The notes beneath the pieces were generated by a model. It had not been told where the DNA came from. It worked only from the letters and a program-made list of their open reading frames with translations, and searched no databases. This document shows, piece by piece, positions 3,240 through 20,169 of a stretch of 64,000 nt of DNA. A program made the translations under genes and the position numbers. This DNA comes from Treponema sp. (GTDB taxonomy: Bacteria > Spirochaetota > Spirochaetia > Treponematales > Treponemataceae): positions 1-64,000 of the forward strand of contig JAFSRD010000020.1 in the NCBI GenBank assembly GCA_017446265.1, read 5' to 3'. Numbering within the stretch: the stretch's first letter is position 1; the number at the start of each line of letters is the position of its first letter.

Positions 3240-4052
3240 CTAAAAAATTTCTTGCGGCAATTTTCCATATTCCGCGCACGCGTATGCGTTGTGATTGTGA
3301 ATGCTCTCGTAGTTTTCTGCTTCAACTGAAAACCATGCAAACGGCGTTGCAACGGGAAACGAGCGCAACGCAAGGTACACATCGCGCACAACATCTTCCA
3401 CAAAACGCGGATTGTCATACGCATGTTCCGTTACGTATTTTTCATCTTCGCGTTTGAGTCCGCTGTACAGGCCGCTTGATGCGCACGATTCAATCGCAGC
3501 AATTACATCTTCAATCCAGAAAAAATCTGAGTACAAAAGTTTTACGCGCACAATGCCGCGTTGATTGTGCGCTCCGTATTCGCTTATTGCTTTTGAGCAT
3601 GGACACACTGTAGTAACAGGCACTTCGACAGCTATAAAAAAAATGCGCTCGTTTTTGCCGACACTTCCTTCGTATGAACACATGTAGCTCATTATGCCAG
3701 GTGTAGCAGTAATCGGCGCGTTCTTTTTCATAAAGAAAGGAAACGTGATTTTTCCATATGCGTGCTCGGCAAAAAGTTTTTCGCGCATTTCGTTGAGCAT
3801 GGCGAGGAAATGATTCATTGCAATAGTGCTATAGTGCTTGTGAAAAATTTCTACAAAGCGGCTCATGTGCGTACCTTTGTAATTGTGCGGCAAATTGACA
3901 AATAAATCGACAACAGCAGTTGTGTTTTGCGTTTTATTGATTTTGTCGAGTACCGTTACAGGATACCGCAATCCGCACACGCCTACTTTTTTCAGCGGTA
4001 CGTTTCGCGCATCATGCTCGCTTTGAATGTCGCGGAGATTAGGAGCGTTCAT
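3240..4052 (-). CDS. folE2: GTP cyclohydrolase FolE2 (type IB)
   Basis: Catalyses GTP to 7,8-dihydroneopterin triphosphate, the first step of folate and queuosine precursor synthesis. The signature '[17 protein letters not shown]' with the metal-binding cysteine, and the C-terminal '[10 protein letters not shown]' segment, are diagnostic of the metal-flexible FolE2 family rather than zinc FolE. About 270 residues, normal length. The start ATG (4052) overlaps the folD stop as ATGA, so translation is probably coupled; the longer frame from 4112 would lie inside folD. Its linkage to folD places two one-carbon/folate steps in one transcript. Confidence 0.95.
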
Positions 4053-4987
4053 GCGTGTACTCCATGCGGTACAGCAGTGTACTTTTCGTTCACTCCGTTC
4101 TGTGCGGTGCATCGCTCGGCAAAACGCTCGGCTGCTTCAAGCGTATTTTGCATGAGCATTGCTATTGTCATGGGACCAACGCCACCAGGCACAGGCGTAA
4201 TAAAAGACGCAACCTCTTTCACGTTCTCAAAATCAACATCGCCAACTAATCGATAGCCGCTTTTTTTTGAACTGTCAGGAATTCTGTTTACGCCCACATC
4301 TATGACGCATGCGCCGCGTTTTATCATGTTTTTAGTAACTGCATTCGGTTTTCCAACTGCAACAATTACAATGTCAGCGCACCGTGTAATGTCTGCAAGA
4401 TTTTTTGTTCCCGTATGGCAGAGCGTTACAGTCGCGTTGCAGTCTCTTCGCGCAAGCAAAAGAGCTGTAGGCTTTCCAACAATATTTGAACGCCCTATGA
4501 CAGCAACGTTTGCGCCGTCAGTTTGCACGTGCGTTCGCTTTAGCAATTCAATGATTCCGTGCGGCGTACATGGAAGCGGCGCATCATTTCCAATTACAAG
4601 ATTGCCCGCGTTTATGGGATGAAAACCATCAACATCTTTTTCGCTTGCAATTGCCATAATGATTTTTTGCTCGTTTATGTGTTTTGGAAGCGGCAGTTGC
4701 ACAAGAATGCCATGCACGCTGTTGTCGCTGTTGAGCTCATTGATAATTGAAAGCAGTTCTTGCTCGCTTGTGTTCTCTGGCATGTGTATAGATTTGTCGA
4801 GCATTCCCGCTTCTGCAAGCGCTTTTTGTTTTGCTGCCACATATGAAACGCTTGCAGGATTGTCGCCTACAAGAATCACCGCAAGGCACGGCACTATGCC
4901 TCGCGCTTTTGCCTTTTGCACACGCACTGCAACTTCTGCACGAATGTCTGAGGCAATTTTTTTCCCATCTATGAGTACTGCGCTCAT
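4049..4987 (-). CDS. folD: Bifunctional methylene-THF dehydrogenase / methenyl-THF cyclohydrolase
   Basis: Cytosolic enzyme interconverting 5,10-methylene-THF and 10-formyl-THF. Visible signatures: 'YVAAKQKA' with the catalytic lysine near residue 56, '[10 protein letters not shown]' and '[10 protein letters not shown]' in the substrate domain, '[11 protein letters not shown]' as the NADP-binding loop, and '[10 protein letters not shown]' near the C-terminus. 312 residues, slightly longer than usual because of about 25 extra C-terminal residues. The start follows AGG five bases upstream. It is first in the minus-strand operon and divergent from the outer-membrane-type gene at 5093. Confidence 0.96.
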
Positions 4988-5019
4988 GTAACCTGCACCG
5001 TCCTAAAAGTATTTCATTA

Positions 5020-5049
5020 TTGATAAAACGTATTGAAATAAGATATAAT
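5020..5049 (+). promoter_or_regulatory. Promoter of the 5.1-6.8 kb envelope genes
   Basis: TTGATA (5020-5025), an 18-nt spacer, then a perfect TATAAT (5044-5049), 43 bp before the ATG at 5093. The gap between folD and this gene is AT-rich and must hold divergent promoters. Confidence 0.6.
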
Positions 5050-5092
5050 TGTACTATATCTTTTTTTTGCTGCATTAGCAATGCGAGGAACA

Positions 5093-5722
5093 ATGAAACG
5101 AATTTTACCGCTGCTCTGCATTTTTTTATTGTGTACGGCAAGCGTTTTTTCACAGGACGGCTCTCAAGGCGATGAATATGACGATGGGGCAAGTCCTGCA
5201 TATAAAATGAACGGACGTGGTGACCAATACATACAGATTTCGCTCATGCCGAGTTTTCCGCTCAACTTCAAAAAGCACATGTATGTGGGCGGAGCTGCGC
5301 AGCTTGGCTACCGATATTTTCTTACAAGTTGGTTTGCGCTCGGCGGAGATATCACTGTTGGCTATCATCCAACGCTCGGAAGCAACGTATTCAATTTTTG
5401 GCCTATAACGCTGTGTGCCACATTTCAGCCGTCAATATGGCGTTTTGAATTTCCAATCACATTAGCGGCGGGAATAGCATTTGAAACATATCAAAGCAGA
5501 AAGTATTTTCCTGCTTTAGCGGTAAAACCTGAAATAGGTGTATTTTTCCGTGCATTTGAAAGTTGGTCGTTCGGCATAGGATGCGATTTTTTGTGGCTGC
5601 CGCAATGGAATTCGTTTGCAAAAGATGCAAACGGCGTTAAACTGACAGCAGAAGAGAAAAGAAAATACACTTTTCATGGCTTATTCATAACGGCCTCGCT
5701 TTCTGCACGATACCATTTTTAG
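5093..5722 (+). CDS. Secreted outer-membrane beta-barrel-like protein
   Basis: 209 residues beginning with a clear signal peptide (MKRILPLLCIFLLC, then a small-residue cleavage region before QDGSQ). The mature part alternates hydrophobic and polar residues with many aromatics ('YIQISLMPSF', 'LGYRYFLTSWFALGGDITVGY') and ends 'SLSARYHF', with the terminal phenylalanine common in outer-membrane barrels. Small (about 8 predicted strands), like the OmpW/OmpX-size spirochaete porin-like proteins. An upstream in-frame ATG at 5081 lacks the GAGG spacing that the 5093 start has. It is followed 10 bp later by a lipoprotein gene, so the two probably act at the same membrane. Specific function unknown. 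Confidence 0.75.
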   Translation: MKRILPLLCIFLLCTASVFSQDGSQGDEYDDGASPAYKMNGRGDQYIQISLMPSFPLNFKKHMYVGGAAQLGYRYFLTSWFALGGDITVGYHPTLGSNVFNFWPITLCATFQPSIWRFEFPITLAAGIAFETYQSRKYFPALAVKPEIGVFFRAFESWSFGIGCDFLWLPQWNSFAKDANGVKLTAEEKRKYTFHGLFITASLSARYHF

Positions 5723-5732
5723 GACGACGAGC

Positions 5733-6842
5733 ATGAGAATCAGAATTACTAAGTTGTTGCTATGCGCAGCTCTTTTTGCGACAGCACTGGCATGTGCAAG
5801 TTGTTATCAAATCGTATTTGCAAAAATTATGGGAGAAGTAGAACTTAGAGATGCCACAGTAAAAGGGCGCATCAATTCTATAGTGCGCTATACATTGGGT
5901 GGTACGGAATGTATTTTTGTCCAAAATGGAAGAATCTATTATAAACAGGCGGATATAAACTATAACGCCGGTTGGACGGAATTTACAAACGGTATTGAAA
6001 AGCTTTCGTATAACTACTACGGCGACAAATTTGATGGCATATATATTTATAAACTTGCTGCAAATACACATTACTTATATGCAATAGGCACGGAGATTGT
6101 AAGTAATAAAACCGATGGCAAAAACATACGAGGTCCGCGTCATTTATATTATTATGACACACCAGCAGCAACATGGAAAAAAATGGCAGCTGATGTCGGA
6201 GATTCCAACAGCACCACGACAACACTATTCTGCACAAATACGATTGATGCAGCACATCGCGAGGCATATATACAGCTAGATGGCAAGGTATATAAACTTG
6301 ATGGAACTACGCTTAATACATCCGTTCCTGTAAGTACACATGGTGCTGGCGCTTCAACAAAGTCTGCTATATATTTCAGCGGCAACACCTATTTCTTTGA
6401 TACAGAAGCTTCTGCAACAAACGAAAGAAAAGGTGGAGCAGCAACACATGTGTACCGTGCATCAGGAAGCACATTGCAGTATTCATCTGATGCAGTCTCT
6501 TGGTCCGACGCTGCTTCATGTCGTAGCACAATACTCTCTATAGCAGTTACGAGCAACGCGATTATACTTGGCACATATACGTCAGGTCTTGCAAAAGTGA
6601 CAAATTCAGGCGGTCAACCCGGCAGTTCTACCGTAGGATTCAGCACAAATGCAGAGGCAGCTCTTGACGCTCCTTATGAAATACCTGCCATGATTTGCAT
6701 CGATCCAGAAAAAAGCGAAATAAACGCAACGCTTTACGCGGCAGCTGATTTTAAACGGAAAGATTCTATTTCAGGCACCAGCTACGATGACATATGCTTA
6801 TGGGCATATTATGCGTCACGTGGCAACTGGAACAGAGAATAG
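5733..6842 (+). CDS. Lipoprotein of unknown function
   Basis: 369 residues with a lipoprotein-type signal (hydrophobic core then 'ACASC', modified cysteine near residue 24). The mature protein is rich in Tyr, Thr and Ser with short repeated beta-like motifs ('SIVRYTLGGTECIFVQNGRIYY', shown here only as a description of its character: alternating strands and glycine turns), suggesting a beta-propeller or beta-sandwich fold; I do not recognise the family. It sits 10 bp after the barrel gene and 12 bp before rarA, so it may share a transcript with both. The lipid anchor places it at the inner or outer membrane; spirochaetes use looser lipoboxes than E. coli. Confidence 0.65.
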   Translation: MRIRITKLLLCAALFATALACASCYQIVFAKIMGEVELRDATVKGRINSIVRYTLGGTECIFVQNGRIYYKQADINYNAGWTEFTNGIEKLSYNYYGDKFDGIYIYKLAANTHYLYAIGTEIVSNKTDGKNIRGPRHLYYYDTPAATWKKMAADVGDSNSTTTTLFCTNTIDAAHREAYIQLDGKVYKLDGTTLNTSVPVSTHGAGASTKSAIYFSGNTYFFDTEASATNERKGGAATHVYRASGSTLQYSSDAVSWSDAASCRSTILSIAVTSNAIILGTYTSGLAKVTNSGGQPGSSTVGFSTNAEAALDAPYEIPAMICIDPEKSEINATLYAAADFKRKDSISGTSYDDICLWAYYASRGNWNRE

Positions 6843-6854
6843 GTATTTCCACAT

Positions 6855-9434
6855 ATGGCTGAAGGAGACGACATTCTCTTTAAAGCAGCGCATTTGCTCC
6901 GTGAACCGCTTGCCGCGCGCATGAGACCGCGCACGCTCGACGAATATATTGGGCAAGACCACATCGTAGGTAAAGGCAGGCTGTTGCGGCGTGCAATTGC
7001 CGCGGACCAGCTTTCGTCAGTCATCTTTTACGGACCGCCGGGAAGCGGCAAAACAACACTTGCGCGCGTCATTGCCAATCACACAAAGAGCAATTTTATT
7101 ACGCTCAACGCTGTACTCACTGGTGTTGCAGATATTAGAGGCGCAATCAAGCAGGCGGAAGAGTATTTCAACTTGTACAGCCGCCGCACAATTTTATTTG
7201 TTGATGAAGTACATCGATGGAACCGCGCGCAGCAGGATGCACTTTTGCCGTGGGTTGAAAACGGTACAATCATTTTAATTGGTGCGACAACAGAAAATCC
7301 ATTCTTTGAAGTGAACAAAGCACTCGTGAGCAGGAGCCGTGTGTTTCAGTTAAAAGCACTCACAAAAGATGATTTGAAAAAAGCTGCCGAGCAAGCGCTT
7401 TCTGACACCGAACGCGGCTACGGTCACTGGAATGTGGAGTTTGAAAAAGGAGCGCTTGAACATCTTGTAGAAACAGCAAGTGGCGATGCGCGAAGTTTGC
7501 TCAATGCGCTTGAACTTGCTGTTGAGACAACGAGCGAAAAATGGGACCCAGGAGCAGAGCCGCCTGTGCCCGCATGGGGAAGCACAATTTACATAAGCGC
7601 AGAAACGGCAGAAGAATCAATTCAAAAAAAAGTTGTGCTGTACGACCGTGACGGCGACTATCACTACGACATCATAAGCGCATTCATAAAAAGTTTGCGC
7701 GGGCGCGATGCTGATGCTGCAATGTATTGGCTTGCCCGCATGGTTGCCGCAGGCGAAGACGCAAATTTTATTTTCCGCAGAATGCTTATTTCTGCATGCG
7801 AAGATACCGGACTTGCTGACCCGCATGCAGTCACCGTTGTTACAAGTTGCGCGCAGGCTTTTGACAGAGTAGGCATGCCTGAAGGTCGCTATTTTCTTGC
7901 GCACGCAGCATTGTATTTGGCAACTGCTCCTAAATCTAACAGCTCCATGGCGTTTTTTGACGCGCTTGCATCTGTTGAACAAGAAGATGCAGAAGTGCCG
8001 AACCACCTGCGCGACGGGAATCGTGATGCAGAAGGCTTTGGACACGGCGAAGGCTATTTGTATCCTCATGCGTACCGCGACCATTGGGTTGCTCAGCAGT
8101 ATCTTCCAGATGCACTCATAGGCAGAGTATTTTACACGCCGAGCACGCAAGGCTATGAAAAATCAATTAGGGATGATGTGCTCTCGCGACGCGAGTTGCA
8201 AATAGCAGCATTGCTTGAGCGCGAGCAAATAGCACGCACGGCAGATGATGTTATGGGCACTATGCGTACGGTGGACGCTCTTGCGGCAGGCAACAAAGAG
8301 AATGACAGTGCAACAACTGGCACGGCAGGTGAAAGCGCGGCAGGTGTGACGCACGACGTGCTCGGCGAATGGTGGACACACGCGCATTTTGCACGTGGCA
8401 AAAAAAGCGAGCAGCTTACGTTTAGCCCAAAAGACACTTCAAAGGAAACAGCTCTTAGTCGCGCGGACAAATCGTGGCAGGCTCGCATAGATTCAAACCG
8501 TGCCCATGTGTTGCTTACGCTCCGCGATATGCTCATTGAACTTGCCGAGCTTGTGCGTCATCATCGCTCGCTTGTGTGGAATGCGGATGACGGACTTTTA
8601 CTGTGGGAAGTGATGCGCCGTACTCCCGAAGGTGTTACGTGCGGCGTGTGCAAAACACAAGAGGGTAAAAACATACTTGAGCAGTATTGTCGCACGCTCG
8701 GCGACTTGGACAAGCCTTTTTTGCAAGTTTGCAAGGAAGCATCATCTGCCGCACTTTTGACAAGAGAGATTTTTTCAAGCCTCCTTTTAAACTTCGCATA
8801 TGAAGGAGCAGTTTTTGACAGATTGTTTTTTCACAATCCGTTTACCTCGCGCAATTCCATACAGGCGCTTGTAGGTGCGCTTGATTCAGTCGTGCATAAA
8901 AAAATGACGCGAGGCTTTGCCTTCACTGATGACAATACTGCAACAGAAAATGCTTTAAGCGCATCTGAAATTGTGCAAAGCGTATTTGCAGATGCATGGC
9001 GTATAGTAATTGCACAACGCATTCCATTGGGCGGACAGCGCATAAGTGGCATTGTCAAAAAGCACATATTGACAGGAACTGCAATCAAACCATACGAAGA
9101 CCTTTTGTGCAAAATGGACAATGCCGAAACAGCGTTTTTTAGCGACAAGGCAAATCCGCTCTTTAACTGGAACATGGACACCATTTGCGATGAATTCAAA
9201 AACAGCGGATTTTCTGTGAAAGCATTTTCGCAACGTTTTATAGAAAAACGCTACATAACGCAAGGAGAGCTTGCAAAGTGGTTTGACACACAAAACTCTG
9301 CATATGGCTCAAAGATGGCAGAAGCGCTCGGGGTAAAAGAGCTTGAAAAAATCGTGCGCCTTTTGGAAAGCGCATGCGGCAATACAGTTTTTGACTGGGA
9401 AAATGAAGTTGCATTTTTTGTGATAGAACCGTAA
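6855..9434 (+). CDS. rarA: Replication-associated recombination protein RarA with large C-terminal extension
   Basis: 859 residues against about 430 for ordinary RarA/MgsA. The N-terminal half is a complete clamp-loader-like AAA+ ATPase: Walker A 'GPPGSGKTT' at residues 60-68, Walker B 'FVDEVHRW' near 115, sensor 'GATTENP', arginine finger 'SRSRVF', then the tetramerisation region with 'HLRDGN' and 'YLYPHAYRDHWVAQQYLP'. After a low-complexity linker (residues about 475-525) comes about 330 residues with 'RHHRSLVWNADDGLLLWE', resembling the degenerate methyltransferase-like half of the RarA/unknown-domain fusions known in some cyanobacteria and spirochaetes. RarA acts at stalled forks; the job of the second half is unknown. 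No frameshift is seen across the junction. Confidence 0.85.
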   Translation: MAEGDDILFKAAHLLREPLAARMRPRTLDEYIGQDHIVGKGRLLRRAIAADQLSSVIFYGPPGSGKTTLARVIANHTKSNFITLNAVLTGVADIRGAIKQAEEYFNLYSRRTILFVDEVHRWNRAQQDALLPWVENGTIILIGATTENPFFEVNKALVSRSRVFQLKALTKDDLKKAAEQALSDTERGYGHWNVEFEKGALEHLVETASGDARSLLNALELAVETTSEKWDPGAEPPVPAWGSTIYISAETAEESIQKKVVLYDRDGDYHYDIISAFIKSLRGRDADAAMYWLARMVAAGEDANFIFRRMLISACEDTGLADPHAVTVVTSCAQAFDRVGMPEGRYFLAHAALYLATAPKSNSSMAFFDALASVEQEDAEVPNHLRDGNRDAEGFGHGEGYLYPHAYRDHWVAQQYLPDALIGRVFYTPSTQGYEKSIRDDVLSRRELQIAALLEREQIARTADDVMGTMRTVDALAAGNKENDSATTGTAGESAAGVTHDVLGEWWTHAHFARGKKSEQLTFSPKDTSKETALSRADKSWQARIDSNRAHVLLTLRDMLIELAELVRHHRSLVWNADDGLLLWEVMRRTPEGVTCGVCKTQEGKNILEQYCRTLGDLDKPFLQVCKEASSAALLTREIFSSLLLNFAYEGAVFDRLFFHNPFTSRNSIQALVGALDSVVHKKMTRGFAFTDDNTATENALSASEIVQSVFADAWRIVIAQRIPLGGQRISGIVKKHILTGTAIKPYEDLLCKMDNAETAFFSDKANPLFNWNMDTICDEFKNSGFSVKAFSQRFIEKRYITQGELAKWFDTQNSAYGSKMAEALGVKELEKIVRLLESACGNTVFDWENEVAFFVIEP

Positions 9435-15685: not shown

Positions 15686-15961
15686 CTAGTGCACATTGCC
15701 GTTGAAGCGCGGACGGCGTGCTTCTGCAACGTTTACGCGAACACGGCGACCGTCGAGCTCTTTTCCGTTCATTGCAGCAATTGCTGCATCTGCGCTAGTT
15801 TCTTCTGCCAGTTCCACAAAACCAAATCCCTTTGACTGCTCGGTAAATCGATCCTTAATAATCATCGCTGAAAGCACTTCACCAAAAGGCGCAAATGCGT
15901 TTTTTAACGCATCTTCTGTTGTGGCATAATTGAGGTTGCCCACATAAATTTTTTTGGACAT
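15686..15961 (-). CDS. RRM-type RNA-binding protein
   Basis: 91 residues, a single RNA-recognition motif: RNP2 'KIYVGNLNY' at the N-terminus and RNP1 'KGFGFVEL' near residue 42, then a short Arg-rich tail ending 'RRPRFNGNVH'. This matches the glycine/arginine-tailed bacterial RRM proteins that bind RNA and are often cold induced. The start at 15961 follows AAGGA; the longer frame from 16048 would translate the leader. The predicted 5' leader is about 135 nt, with a perfect 10-bp palindrome (GCCGTACGGC) just before the ribosome site, consistent with post-transcriptional control. It is divergent from the protease cluster across a shared palindromic promoter. Confidence 0.9.
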   Translation of the reverse strand: MSKKIYVGNLNYATTEDALKNAFAPFGEVLSAMIIKDRFTEQSKGFGFVELAEETSADAAIAAMNGKELDGRRVRVNVAEARRPRFNGNVH

Positions 15962-16100
15962 AGTTGTTCCTTGTTGCCGTACGGCATGTGAATTTTGCTG
16001 ATGCCAGCTGCAATCTGTGTTTTCTGAATACCGTAACTGAAACGACAAGAAACAAAAAAAATGCCCGTCAGAACTGTTTTTAGAGAACTAAGATTACTCA

Positions 16101-16179
16101 ACTCTAACTGAAAAAAATAAATCCTGTCAAGAGCGTGCTAAAAAGAAATCTTGACAGGATTATTATGTGTTTATAAAAT
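16101..16179. promoter_or_regulatory. Divergent promoter pair built on a 12-bp perfect inverted repeat
   Basis: Arms AATCCTGTCAAG (16120-16131) and CTTGACAGGATT (16150-16161) are perfect complements separated by 18 nt. Each arm contains a consensus TTGACA -35 box pointing outward. To the right, TTGACA (16151-16156), 17 nt, TAAAAT (16174-16179) drives the protease cluster, 33 nt before its ATG with AAGGAG. To the left on the minus strand, TTGACA (16125-16130), 18 nt, TAGAGT (16101-16106) drives the RRM gene. The symmetry would fit one dimeric regulator covering both -35 boxes. Confidence 0.65.
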
Positions 16180-16211: not shown

Positions 16212-17984
16212 ATGAACGCAAATAAAAAATACGTTGTTTGTTCTTTGCTGATTCTTTTGGCAACGTATGTTTTTGCAGCACCTTTGCGCAATTACGTGTG
16301 CATTGTGCGCGGCAATCTTGCAAAAGATTCTACCAAGTTCCTTGAAGAAATCAAAGACGATTTAAATGACAGAGGATATTCTCGTTATGCGAAAGAAATT
16401 GAAGCGTACCTCAAGGGCAGTTTCGGTTCAGGTTTTGTATTTTATGCAAGCGACAAAAAGCCGTATGTGATTACAAACAGACATGTCGTTCACAAAGCGG
16501 AAACGGCAAATGTTCAGTTTGAAAACGAAGACGGCTCTACGTCTGAATACAAAGAACTAAAAATAGTTGCAATTGACGAAGATATTGATGTTGCATTTTT
16601 AGCATTGCCAGAGACATACACTCGCCCAGGATTGACATTTCGCGAAAGTGCCGTTTCCGATGGCGAGGAAGTTTGGTCAGCAGGTTTTCCAGGACTTGGA
16701 AATGAACCGATGTGGCAACTCGGTAAGGGAAGCGTTACAAATGCGCGAGCAAAAATTAAGGAATTATTAAATCCAGACATTTCGACGATTATTCAGCACT
16801 CTGCCCAAGTGGACGGCGGAAACTCTGGCGGTCCGCTTTTGATAACAGCAAACACAGAAAGCGGATACCACGTTGTCGGAATTAACACGTGGAAAGCATA
16901 CATGCGAGAGTCTACAAACTTTTCAATTCCTGCAAAAGTTGTAAGCGACTTTGTTGAGCAGACGGTAAAAAATACAAAGAAAAAAATCAGTATTGACGAG
17001 CGAGTAAAACAATTTGTAAAAGCAACTTCAAACAAAGATGAATTATTTACAGCGCTTGGAAAATATGTTTCTAACGAAATGATTTCAAAAGTTGGAAAAA
17101 ATTCATTTACAACTGTGCTCGCAATTGCTCCGTCGGATGTACGAAGTACCGTTGCAGGAATTTTCGCGTACGATCCAATTGAAGGTCTTCGCTATGCAAC
17201 AGCGTATCAAATATGGAAAGAATTTCAAGACGGAGAGACAACGCTAAAAACAGAAGCCAGTAGCGCAGAGGAATCGACAAATGGCACAAAAGTGACGCTC
17301 ACAATTGGCGACAAAGAACCTATAGAAACACTTTGGATAGAAGAGCAGGGCAACTGGCGGCTAGTTGAATTTAGCACAATCAAACAAGCAGAGAAAGGGA
17401 AATCATCAGAAAAGAAAAAAACATCTAAAAAATCTAGCGGTGCAAAAATTGACGGCGTTGAAGTTATAGACCAATACAGGATGCATATTTCACTTGGGCT
17501 ATTGTATCCGTTTGAATCAAAAAAGCCAGGCTTTGATTTTTCGATAGTCGGTTCATGGCACTATGTTGCATTTGGCGCATTTGTGCAAATGCAAAAGGTA
17601 AATATACTGGTTGATTTAAATAATAGCATATGGGGCGGTCCCATAGTAGAAAGGCTAACATCAATGACAACTTTGGGGCCAATTCTTCGAGTGCAAGTTC
17701 CAGTGTCGTTTAATAGATTTACACTCATGCCGTACGGTGACGTGCGTGCGGGTTTTTCAAATATTTGGACAATGACGAAAGATGAGAAATCGACTCGCTT
17801 TTACATTGGTGCAGGGTGCGGACTTGCTTTTTCATTCAATGCGAGCGAAACAGTTGCGCCGTTCGTAACTGTGGGATACATGCACTCAATCTACAAGGGA
17901 TTGCTTTCAAGCAACAGTGGTGCAATGGCAGAACATACGAATGCGATTATTGCATCGGTTGGTGTAAAACTTATAGAAAGGTAA
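16212..17984 (+). CDS. Secreted trypsin-like serine protease fused to a C-terminal outer-membrane barrel-like domain
   Basis: 590 residues. Signal peptide residues 1-22 (MNANKKYVVC..., cleavage near VFA/A). Residues about 70-260 form an S1/S1C (HtrA-like) protease with the complete triad: His91 in 'NRHVV', Asp126 in 'DIDVAF', Ser205 in 'DGGNSGGP'. No PDZ domain is visible. A middle region (260-395) is followed by a Lys/Ser-rich linker (about 396-412) and about 175 residues of alternating strands rich in aromatics and glycine ('MHISLGLLYPF', 'YIGAGCGLAFSF', 'PFVTVGYMHS') that look like an 8-strand outer-membrane barrel. This predicts a surface- or periplasm-facing protease tethered to the outer membrane. 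It opens a four-gene envelope cluster. The barrel call is pattern-based. Confidence 0.75.
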   Translation: MNANKKYVVCSLLILLATYVFAAPLRNYVCIVRGNLAKDSTKFLEEIKDDLNDRGYSRYAKEIEAYLKGSFGSGFVFYASDKKPYVITNRHVVHKAETANVQFENEDGSTSEYKELKIVAIDEDIDVAFLALPETYTRPGLTFRESAVSDGEEVWSAGFPGLGNEPMWQLGKGSVTNARAKIKELLNPDISTIIQHSAQVDGGNSGGPLLITANTESGYHVVGINTWKAYMRESTNFSIPAKVVSDFVEQTVKNTKKKISIDERVKQFVKATSNKDELFTALGKYVSNEMISKVGKNSFTTVLAIAPSDVRSTVAGIFAYDPIEGLRYATAYQIWKEFQDGETTLKTEASSAEESTNGTKVTLTIGDKEPIETLWIEEQGNWRLVEFSTIKQAEKGKSSEKKKTSKKSSGAKIDGVEVIDQYRMHISLGLLYPFESKKPGFDFSIVGSWHYVAFGAFVQMQKVNILVDLNNSIWGGPIVERLTSMTTLGPILRVQVPVSFNRFTLMPYGDVRAGFSNIWTMTKDEKSTRFYIGAGCGLAFSFNASETVAPFVTVGYMHSIYKGLLSSNSGAMAEHTNAIIASVGVKLIER

Positions 17985-17999
17985 AAAGGAGGAACCTTT

Positions 18000-18701
18000 A
18001 TGAAAAAACTTTTTGGAGTTGCACTTCTTGCGGGATTTGCAATGATTTTTACAAGTTGCTGGAGTATAAGCTTAATCAGCACCGCTGTTGCAGTGTCAAA
18101 AGCGAATGCAGAAAGAAACCAGGAAGAGTTGTACAACAATCTTTCTGATTCAAAAAGGCGAGAAGTGTTAAAAAAAATTTGTGAAACATACACTCCCAAC
18201 AATTCTGTTCTTGTGTATGGAACATTTACTGTCGGCACTCCTCCAGAGCAATTAGAATTTATACAAATGGATACAACAAAACCTGCGCAACATCTTGAAT
18301 ACATAGGTAGCCCAAGTGGGTTATTCAAGTTAGGCACAAATTTTTTCTTTAAGCCTTGCATTCCAGGCGGAAGATACCACGCCACTTATCGTATATACAC
18401 TGTAGGCACCCCCTCATACAGCACCACATACAACACATATTACGGCATGCAAGGAAATACCGTACATGATTTTACTGCTCCAACAAAACCTGGCCTTTAT
18501 TTTTATGGAGATAAAGTATACGACTATAGACGAACATATTCAAATCCTACAACACATGAAAAATTTGCAAAATACGAAAAAGATTTAAAAGAATGCGAAA
18601 TAGAATCTTTAAAATACTTGCTTAAGTTTTACAGCGAAACGGCTTGGGAGCCTGTAATAAACAACAGACTTGAAGAATTAGGTGCAGGAGGTAAAAAATG
18701 A
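18000..18701 (+). CDS. Lipoprotein of unknown function in the protease cluster
   Basis: 233 residues; lipoprotein signal 'GFAMIFTSC' with the modified cysteine near residue 20. The mature part starts with a charged helix (residues 35-65), then a Tyr/Thr/Gly-rich middle ('YSTTYNTYYG') and ends with a charged helical tail. I do not recognise the family. AGGAGG precedes the ATG, 15 bp after the protease stop, and its own stop overlaps the next gene as ATGA, so it is clearly co-transcribed and coupled. A partner or chaperone of the protease or barrel is possible, but only from position. Confidence 0.65.
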   Translation: MKKLFGVALLAGFAMIFTSCWSISLISTAVAVSKANAERNQEELYNNLSDSKRREVLKKICETYTPNNSVLVYGTFTVGTPPEQLEFIQMDTTKPAQHLEYIGSPSGLFKLGTNFFFKPCIPGGRYHATYRIYTVGTPSYSTTYNTYYGMQGNTVHDFTAPTKPGLYFYGDKVYDYRRTYSNPTTHEKFAKYEKDLKECEIESLKYLLKFYSETAWEPVINNRLEELGAGGKK

Positions 18702-19309
18702 AAAAAGCAGTCTTATTATTCACTTTGCTAATTTGTAGTGTAACAATGTTTGCTGCAGACAATAAAAAAGAAGAAAAATGGAAAAAGCCATCTGGAAGTC
18801 AAATTTGTTTTATTGTTCGTGTTGCTCTTTCAAATAATCTTAACATGGATTTTTACACAATTGGACTTGATGCATTTAACGTCGAAGACAATCCTATAAC
18901 GTTTGGTTTTATAACAGAGGCATTGCCAGAAACTAGCAGCTGGATTGACTTTCCAAACACTGGAACACTTGGAGAATTTGTGCAGGCTAACATTGCAAAA
19001 AAAGATTTAAAAGATGCAGAAAATGGGTTTTATTTGCCAACTTTTAGAGCATATCTTTTTGATTTGGCTAAATCGCACTTTTACCTCCCTGCAAACATAG
19101 ATGTGTCTTATCCAAGCGACGCAAAGTATGTGTATCTTGGCACATTCATCTACACATTAGACGAATCTGACTTCTCTGTCAAAAATATTCGCCGCATAGA
19201 TGAATACGATGCAGCGCAAAAATTGCTTAACGAAAAACTCGGAGAAGAAGTACAACTTGTTCGTGCGGAAATAAGCGAACACAAAGAGGTCGAAACAAAG
19301 AAAAAATAG
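18698..19309 (+). CDS. Secreted protein of unknown function in the protease cluster
   Basis: 203 residues; signal peptide 'MKKAVLLFTLLICSVTMFA' then a Lys/Glu-rich start of the mature protein and a basic C-terminal tail (KEVETKKK). No lipid-type cysteine at the cleavage site, so likely periplasmic. Contains a beta-rich core ('YVYLGTFIYTLDESDF'), no recognised family. Its ATG overlaps the stop of the preceding lipoprotein (ATGA). Base composition is more AT-rich than the genes on either side of the cluster. Confidence 0.65.
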   Translation: MKKAVLLFTLLICSVTMFAADNKKEEKWKKPSGSQICFIVRVALSNNLNMDFYTIGLDAFNVEDNPITFGFITEALPETSSWIDFPNTGTLGEFVQANIAKKDLKDAENGFYLPTFRAYLFDLAKSHFYLPANIDVSYPSDAKYVYLGTFIYTLDESDFSVKNIRRIDEYDAAQKLLNEKLGEEVQLVRAEISEHKEVETKKK

Positions 19310-19421
19310 GAGAAAAAGATTTGCCGCCTACATTGCGTTAAAGCGTTTTGTAGGTATGGTAAATCTTATAAAAATATGATACATTCATGACATATTCATA
19401 AAACATATGGAGGATTATTTT

Positions 19422-20123
19422 ATGAAAAAGATTTTGGCAATTGCAACAGCAATTATTCTTGGAACAAGTGCAATGCACGCTGTAGACATTGAACTTGATG
19501 TTATGCACTTCCTTTGGAATTACAACAAAGTTACCCACTTAACATTAAACGGTAACAAACTTCCAAAAGAAGCGAAAGTTTCAACTCGCTACAACAGCCC
19601 ATTTTTAAGCTTCGGATTAAATGCGAACTTCTACTTTATGGAATCTGGAATGGCAAAACTTGGTATGAATGTGGCCGGTGGTTTTGATTTTGGAACATTG
19701 CTTACACTAAGTTCATCTTCTTCAATTGGTTCAGATGCAACATGGGGCGGTGGCGGTTTCCTTAAAGTTGGTTTTGCTGCAAGCATTAACTTCAACGATG
19801 TTCATTCTCTTTATGTTTCACCAGGATTCATACTTACGGGTGCATCGGGAACATTAAAGACATTTGGAATAGACAATAGAATTTCAACATTTCTTGTTGG
19901 ATTAGATATTGACGTAGGGTATCGCGCATTTTTCTTGCAAAAATCGAATTTTGATTTTGGCATAAATGCAGGTATTAACATTGATTTCCCATTAGGTGGC
20001 GTTGTGGGTAGCAAGTATACTTATACCCCCATTTATGGTGCAACTACAACAACAAATAATAAAAGCGGTGCATTCGGCGGCGGCTTTAAATTGTACGTAG
20101 GCCCTGCTTTTAGGTTAAAATAA
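19422..20123 (+). CDS. Secreted outer-membrane beta-barrel-like protein
   Basis: 233 residues; signal peptide 'MKKILAIATAIILGTSAMHA', then alternating hydrophobic/polar strands with glycine turns ('FLSFGLNANFYF', 'FLVGLDIDVGYRAFFL', 'FGGGFKLYVGPAFRL') typical of an 8-10 strand barrel. The start at 19422 is preceded by a GGAGG 9-10 nt upstream; the longer frame from 19407 would include that site. The 112-bp gap from the previous gene contains AT-rich sequence (a TATGAT box near 19375) and an imperfect CCTACA/TGTAGG hairpin, so it may also have its own promoter. A strong terminator follows, closing the cluster. Confidence 0.75.
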   Translation: MKKILAIATAIILGTSAMHAVDIELDVMHFLWNYNKVTHLTLNGNKLPKEAKVSTRYNSPFLSFGLNANFYFMESGMAKLGMNVAGGFDFGTLLTLSSSSSIGSDATWGGGGFLKVGFAASINFNDVHSLYVSPGFILTGASGTLKTFGIDNRISTFLVGLDIDVGYRAFFLQKSNFDFGINAGINIDFPLGGVVGSKYTYTPIYGATTTTNNKSGAFGGGFKLYVGPAFRLK

Positions 20124-20136
20124 ATTATGGGAATGT

Positions 20137-20169
20137 TTAAAAGTGCCGCTAATAGCGCGGCACTTTTAA
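20137..20169 (+). terminator. Strong hairpin terminator closing the protease cluster
   Basis: A perfect 13-bp stem (arms 20137-20149 and 20157-20169, core AAAGTGCCGC) with a 7-nt loop. The TTTTAA at the end of the right arm acts as the U-run; because the arms are symmetric it could also stop transcripts arriving from cysK on the other strand. Confidence 0.8.

Follow-up and report, generated by a model that had tools for sequence, protein, structure and literature searches.

A predicted barrel-anchored S1C-type protease and its linked secreted partners in Treponema and related spirochaetes

Of the periplasmic quality-control proteases, those known best are either soluble or attached to the inner membrane. 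HtrA-like proteases of Treponema denticola have been reported (TDE1966 and TDE2300; PMC5643300, PMC2965109), and in the outer-membrane repertoire of T. pallidum the 8-stranded barrels listed are single-domain proteins only (PMC8407342). Here, we analyzed a stretch of 64,000 nucleotides from a Treponema sp. genome (assembly GCA_017446265.1, contig JAFSRD010000020.1, positions 1 to 64,000; called the window throughout) with respect to a gene encoding a secreted protein, P1, in which an HtrA-like (S1C) protease domain is fused to a small C-terminal domain of outer-membrane barrel character, and to the three genes following it, P2, P3 and P4 (Table 1). The presence of P1, P2 and P3 in many Treponema and related bacteria points, as judged from their sequences, to an unstudied complex for protein processing in the envelope. 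We would give about even chances to the reading as a whole, according to which P1 is a periplasmic S1C protease anchored by its own barrel, with P2 and P3 as an accessory pair docking on it.

Domain structure and predicted location of P1

About 80 relatives sharing the architecture of P1 were found in the same genus, family and order as well as in other spirochaete classes. A previous reading based on the sequence alone (hereafter the sequence-only reading) had described a signal peptide, a complete His91/Asp126/Ser205 triad and a Lys/Ser linker in the 590-residue frame, all of which were recovered by examination of the open reading frame (ORF), Pfam searches and a motif check. Residues 72-210 match Pfam Trypsin_2 (E=3.2e-21), and the three triad residues stand in HtrA-like contexts (TNRHV, DEDIDVA and GNSGGPL). 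In a profile search against the PDB, HTRA1 was the best solved-structure match of the protease domain (4e-19). The partial match to degP_htrA_DO, at 71.6 bits, is far below the NCBIfam cut-off for HtrA/DegP (416.2), and a Pfam search detected no PDZ domain in P1 or any of 52 relatives. A hydrophobic N-terminal segment is present in 75 of 79 relatives, and the linker is rich in Lys and Ser in most of them.

The AlphaFold model of P1 was built from a five-sequence alignment and has a mean pLDDT of 61, with values mostly of 73-86 in the middle domain. The top Foldseek match of this model was the S1C-NTF2 bidomain of RsgI9 (7sjy; 391 columns, E 7e-9, TM 0.46, rmsd 12), so that the middle domain is possibly NTF2-like. 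Since the superposition on 7sjy is loose, it does not prove this identity, and sequence-profile searches gave no support for an NTF2-like fold of the domain.

For the C-terminal part, which had been proposed to form a barrel, the evidence comes mainly from the family. The C-terminus of the window protein alone yielded a marginal match to Pfam OMP_b-brl (E=0.029); the same Pfam family was matched by six of 52 relatives, at best with 9.8e-8. When the C-terminal profile was compared with the PDB, all 12 matches with E<=1 were outer-membrane barrels (OmpG, Ail/OmpX, NspA, OpcA, FadL), each of them weak individually (best E 0.0023). Amphipathic alternation, scored against shuffled sequences, reached a mean z of +1.6 over 79 C-termini of the P1 family, with z between -0.3 and +0.2 for the protease and middle domains of P1 and for P2 and P3. 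AlphaFold also placed eight strands in this region, at low confidence. Taken together, the sequences support an outer-membrane barrel well, and eight strands are likely. Neither a C-terminus of another kind nor homologs with an unfused C-terminal part and unconserved neighbors were encountered: the protease is joined to a C-terminus of 147-201 residues in every full-length relative (79 aligned), and two of the three neighboring genes are conserved.

As established for OmpA and OmpX, both ends of a barrel lie in the periplasm if its strand number is even. Since an even-stranded barrel would keep both of its termini there, the P1 protease is expected in the periplasm, and this analogy makes a periplasmic protease tethered to the outer membrane more likely than a surface protease. 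The alternative, in which the barrel serves to export or display the protease on the outside of the cell in an autotransporter-like manner for proteolysis of host, prey or substrate proteins, would suit a genus whose mouth and gut species degrade external proteins; some spirochaete proteins are surface exposed, and the linker of P1 is long. We nevertheless consider it unlikely, as the even-stranded barrel would put the N-terminal domain on the periplasmic side and the pore of a barrel of about eight strands would be too small for export of a passenger. Likewise, no Pfam match to the 12-stranded autotransporter beta-domain was found in P1 or 52 relatives, and a type Va autotransporter was rejected on these grounds together with the short C-terminus. 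The sequence-only reading had left it open whether the module acts at the surface or in the periplasm; its barrel-tethered protease with lipoprotein and secreted partners is supported, and of the two sides the surface is the less likely one.

The P1-P2-P3 linkage and the P2-P3 pair

The coupling of the protease to a lipoprotein (P2) and an ATGA-coupled secreted protein (P3), likewise pointed out from the sequence alone, recurs outside the window: in 40 of 61 loci of the same genus, both genes lie directly beside P1, and the linkage is also found in other genera, in one other family and in another class, with the module also present in genome G351 (locus L134). Several exceptions among the 61 loci are truncated by contig ends, others are real sub-clades with P1 only. 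Across 393 genomes, P1 and P3 occurred together in 32, singly in 8 and 10, and not at all in 343 (Fisher p 8e-31, a value which ignores relatedness and is a guide only). P2 and P3 usually overlap or nearly touch, with a gap of <=5 bases in 85% of cases. Two gene orders exist, P1-P2-P3 and P2-P3-P1, and since the latter occurs in at least three separate lineages on the P1 tree, the linkage appears to have outlasted rearrangement.

The envelope cluster had been proposed to comprise four genes, of which P1, P2 and P3 are conserved as a unit and P4 is not. P4 itself looks barrel-like (alternation z=2.5). No homolog of it neighbors P1 in any P1 locus examined, and in the nearest relative its counterpart (77% identical) is located on contig G167:C17, with P1-P2-P3 on C21. 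A four-gene unit was therefore rejected.

Profile searches assigned neither P2 nor P3 to a Pfam family and returned nothing reliable from the PDB. By its sequence pattern, P2 is beta-rich with a C-terminal helix; for P3, the residues P131, P139, Y146, G148, D168, A173 and R189 are invariant, and a fold search with a poor model (pLDDT 61) gave no meaningful PDB match. Compared with each other, the two family profiles gave a match in their C-terminal part (probability 92.5, E 4.8e-7), by which P2 and P3 are distantly related paralogs.

At one locus (L162, G174:C68, positions 3997-8654), a free-standing barrel gene is followed by a P2 gene, a P3-P2 fusion, another P2 gene and a second P3-P2 fusion, and no protease is encoded there. 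The free-standing barrel matches OMP_b-brl_2 (E=0.00096). At two loci from another family of the phylum (L164, 4825-6845; L165, 3841-6680), barrel-looking genes lie directly 5′ of P2-P3, again without P1.

Because of the natural P3-P2 fusions, P2 and P3 can be expected to associate with each other. Given that the two are related, fused in one genome and sometimes placed beside free-standing barrels without a protease, the simplest reading is that they form a heteromeric accessory pair and that what they consistently partner is a barrel protein, with a protease attached to it in the case of P1. A broader version, in which spirochaetes generally would use P2-P3 as an accessory pair of small outer-membrane barrels and P1 would be such a barrel with an acquired protease, is more tentative and, in our view, less likely than not; it would describe a hitherto undescribed modular family of complexes, comprising forms with a protease, with a pseudoprotease (L097-L099) and with neither.

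Alternatively, P2 and P3 might be cognate secreted inhibitors, or a timer, of P1 instead of adaptors, given that small secreted beta proteins tightly linked to a protease are typical of protease-inhibitor pairs. This is slightly less probable even than a surface protease, as P2-P3 pairs occur without P1, namely as a second pair in T. denticola-like genomes (L160, L168) and at a site syntenic with loci that do carry P1 (L161, compared with L082-L085), and as there are sub-clades of P1 without P2-P3.

Distribution, descent and genomic setting

A long P1 relative is present in about 59 of 196 genomes of the genus, and across the phylum 40 of 393 genomes contain one, some of them belonging to other genera, families or classes. 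On the P1 tree, no more changes between taxonomic groups are required than the minimum, which argues for mostly vertical descent with losses. The more AT-rich composition of the region had been taken as a hint of a separate origin, which was not borne out: third-position GC of P1 is below that of its neighbors in 93% of the loci compared (54), irrespective of the host. This contrast is shared by the family and therefore not informative on this genome in particular; together with a tree following taxonomy, it led us to reject a recent foreign origin of P1.

The triad is kept in 75-76 of 79 relatives. In three paralogs that appear to be pseudoproteases (L097, 3446-5131; L098, 1876-3492; L099, 8043-9758), all three triad residues are replaced and the protease-middle-barrel architecture is retained. 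In two genomes (L093, 8569-10330; L094, 7688-9597), the P1 gene is broken near residue 133-154 and consists of two frames, with intact P2 and P3 adjoining. That the protease domain mainly serves in binding or sensing, like the S1C protease-like domain of RsgI9, the best fold match, which is reported to bind cellulose (PMC12203970), would fit the rumen-type Treponema among the hosts and the triad-less paralogs, and is the least probable of the alternatives, since outside these paralogs the triad and the GNSGG motif hardly vary (56 of 59 relatives; 52 of 52 rows of another alignment, A4), which would be unexpected without catalysis. In the preferred reading of a barrel-anchored protease, P1 would be catalytically active.

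A neighboring A2M lipoprotein had been suggested as a brake on the protease. This was not supported: the A2M gene lies 22 kb from P1 in the window, is widespread among congeners (154 of 196), shows only a weak association with P1 (odds ratio 2.5, p=0.04, without correction for relatedness), and was never found near P1 in the P1 loci examined.

All four ORFs of the cluster and the strong terminator 3′ of P4 were present (Table 1). A scan for sigma-70-like sites found overall no more of them than in shuffled sequences, hence the promoter candidate 5′ of P1 is suggestive only. Directly 5′ of P1, a divergent gene for an RRM_1 (RNA-recognition-motif) protein occupies positions 15686-16048 (-) of the window. 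In other genomes, a DUF3160 protein of about 900 amino acids (aa) is encoded close to P1-P2-P3 (L040, L041, L044, L067); except in L067, a gene for a Memo-like lipoprotein lies next to it.

Table 1. Predicted features of the P1 locus (positions in the window).
Feature	Position	Strand	Remarks
Promoter candidate, sigma-70-like	16151..16179	+	TTGACA-17-TAAAAT; 11/12 consensus positions; 32 bp 5′ of P1 start
P1, secreted S1C-type serine protease with predicted outer-membrane barrel	16212..17984	+	590 aa
P1 signal peptide	16212..16277	+	residues 1-22, VFA|A; by sequence
P1 HtrA/S1C-like trypsin domain	16419..16979	+	residues 70-256; triad H91/D126/S205
P1 middle domain	16983..17387	+	residues 258-392; predicted helices, then three strands; possibly NTF2-like
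P1 Lys/Ser-rich linker	17388..17453	+	about residues 393-414; disordered in AlphaFold model
P1 C-terminal outer-membrane barrel, predicted	17454..17981	+	residues 415-590, ~176 residues; about 8 strands (likely)
P2, lipoprotein, uncharacterized family	18000..18701	+	lipobox FTSC20; starts 15 bases after P1
P3, secreted protein, P2 paralog	18698..19309	+	ATGA overlap with P2 at 18698-18701
P4, separate predicted outer-membrane barrel gene	19422..20123	+	starts 112 bases after P3; same transcript region
Intrinsic terminator	20137..20169	+	13-bp stem

Proposed mode of action and comparison with known systems

In the proposed mechanism, P1 would be an HtrA-like protease in which the middle domain takes the place of the usual PDZ domains and the C-terminal barrel of about eight strands serves as its own anchor in the outer membrane. 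The protease would hang on the flexible Lys/Ser linker at the periplasmic face of this membrane and could thereby gain access to nascent or incoming proteins. The lipoprotein P2 and the soluble secreted protein P3 may form a pair which docks on the barrel protein and most likely brings substrates to the protease or gates or restrains it. Together, the three proteins might cut or clear envelope proteins or incoming proteins beside the outer membrane.

Several observations weigh against this proposal. A third of the P1 loci, whole sub-clades included, are without P2 and P3, which are hence not obligatory partners of P1. The free-standing barrels beside P2-P3 have no detectable homology to the barrel of P1, and the barrel part of the P1 model, resting on five aligned sequences, is of low confidence (pLDDT about 50-65). 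As neither P2 nor P3 has a recognizable fold, a role of the two as adaptors is a guess.

If the proposal is true, a protease carried by an outer-membrane barrel would put proteolysis where outer-membrane proteins assemble or outside material enters. Moreover, P2 and P3 represent widely conserved secreted families without a Pfam entry. Protease domains and small barrels of these kinds are known, and, as far as the literature search shows, their fusion and its P2-P3 pair are undescribed; no published description of P1 or of this combination was found, which is weak evidence, as the subscription literature was mostly outside the search.

Among the described systems, the HtrA, DegP, DegQ and DegS proteases (S1C) have the same catalytic domain by profile, and a role as periplasmic protease is plausible for P1 as well. 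P1 differs from them in lacking PDZ domains, in staying below the NCBIfam cut-off (71.6 vs 416) and in its signature, QHSAxxDxGNSGG, for which the HtrA counterpart is QTDAAI.PGNSGG. In addition, P1 is predicted to be anchored by a barrel in the outer membrane, whereas the HtrA family is soluble or, in the case of DegS, bound to the inner membrane. The ectodomain of RsgI9 from Clostridium thermocellum resembles P1 in the succession of an S1C domain and a helical/beta domain; unlike P1, it is part of a membrane-bound anti-sigma factor from a Gram-positive organism and has no barrel. Type Va autotransporter serine proteases, such as the SPATEs and fusolisin, share with P1 the signal peptide, the N-terminal protease and a C-terminal barrel, but have a 12-stranded domain and a passenger beta-helix, both absent from P1, and a protease of a different family. 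Small barrels are also found in bipartite proteins of the OmpA type, which combine them with a periplasmic partner domain, and in OmpX/Ail, along which the C-terminal profile of P1 aligns. In P1, in contrast to the OmpA type, the soluble part is a protease and is situated at the N-terminus.

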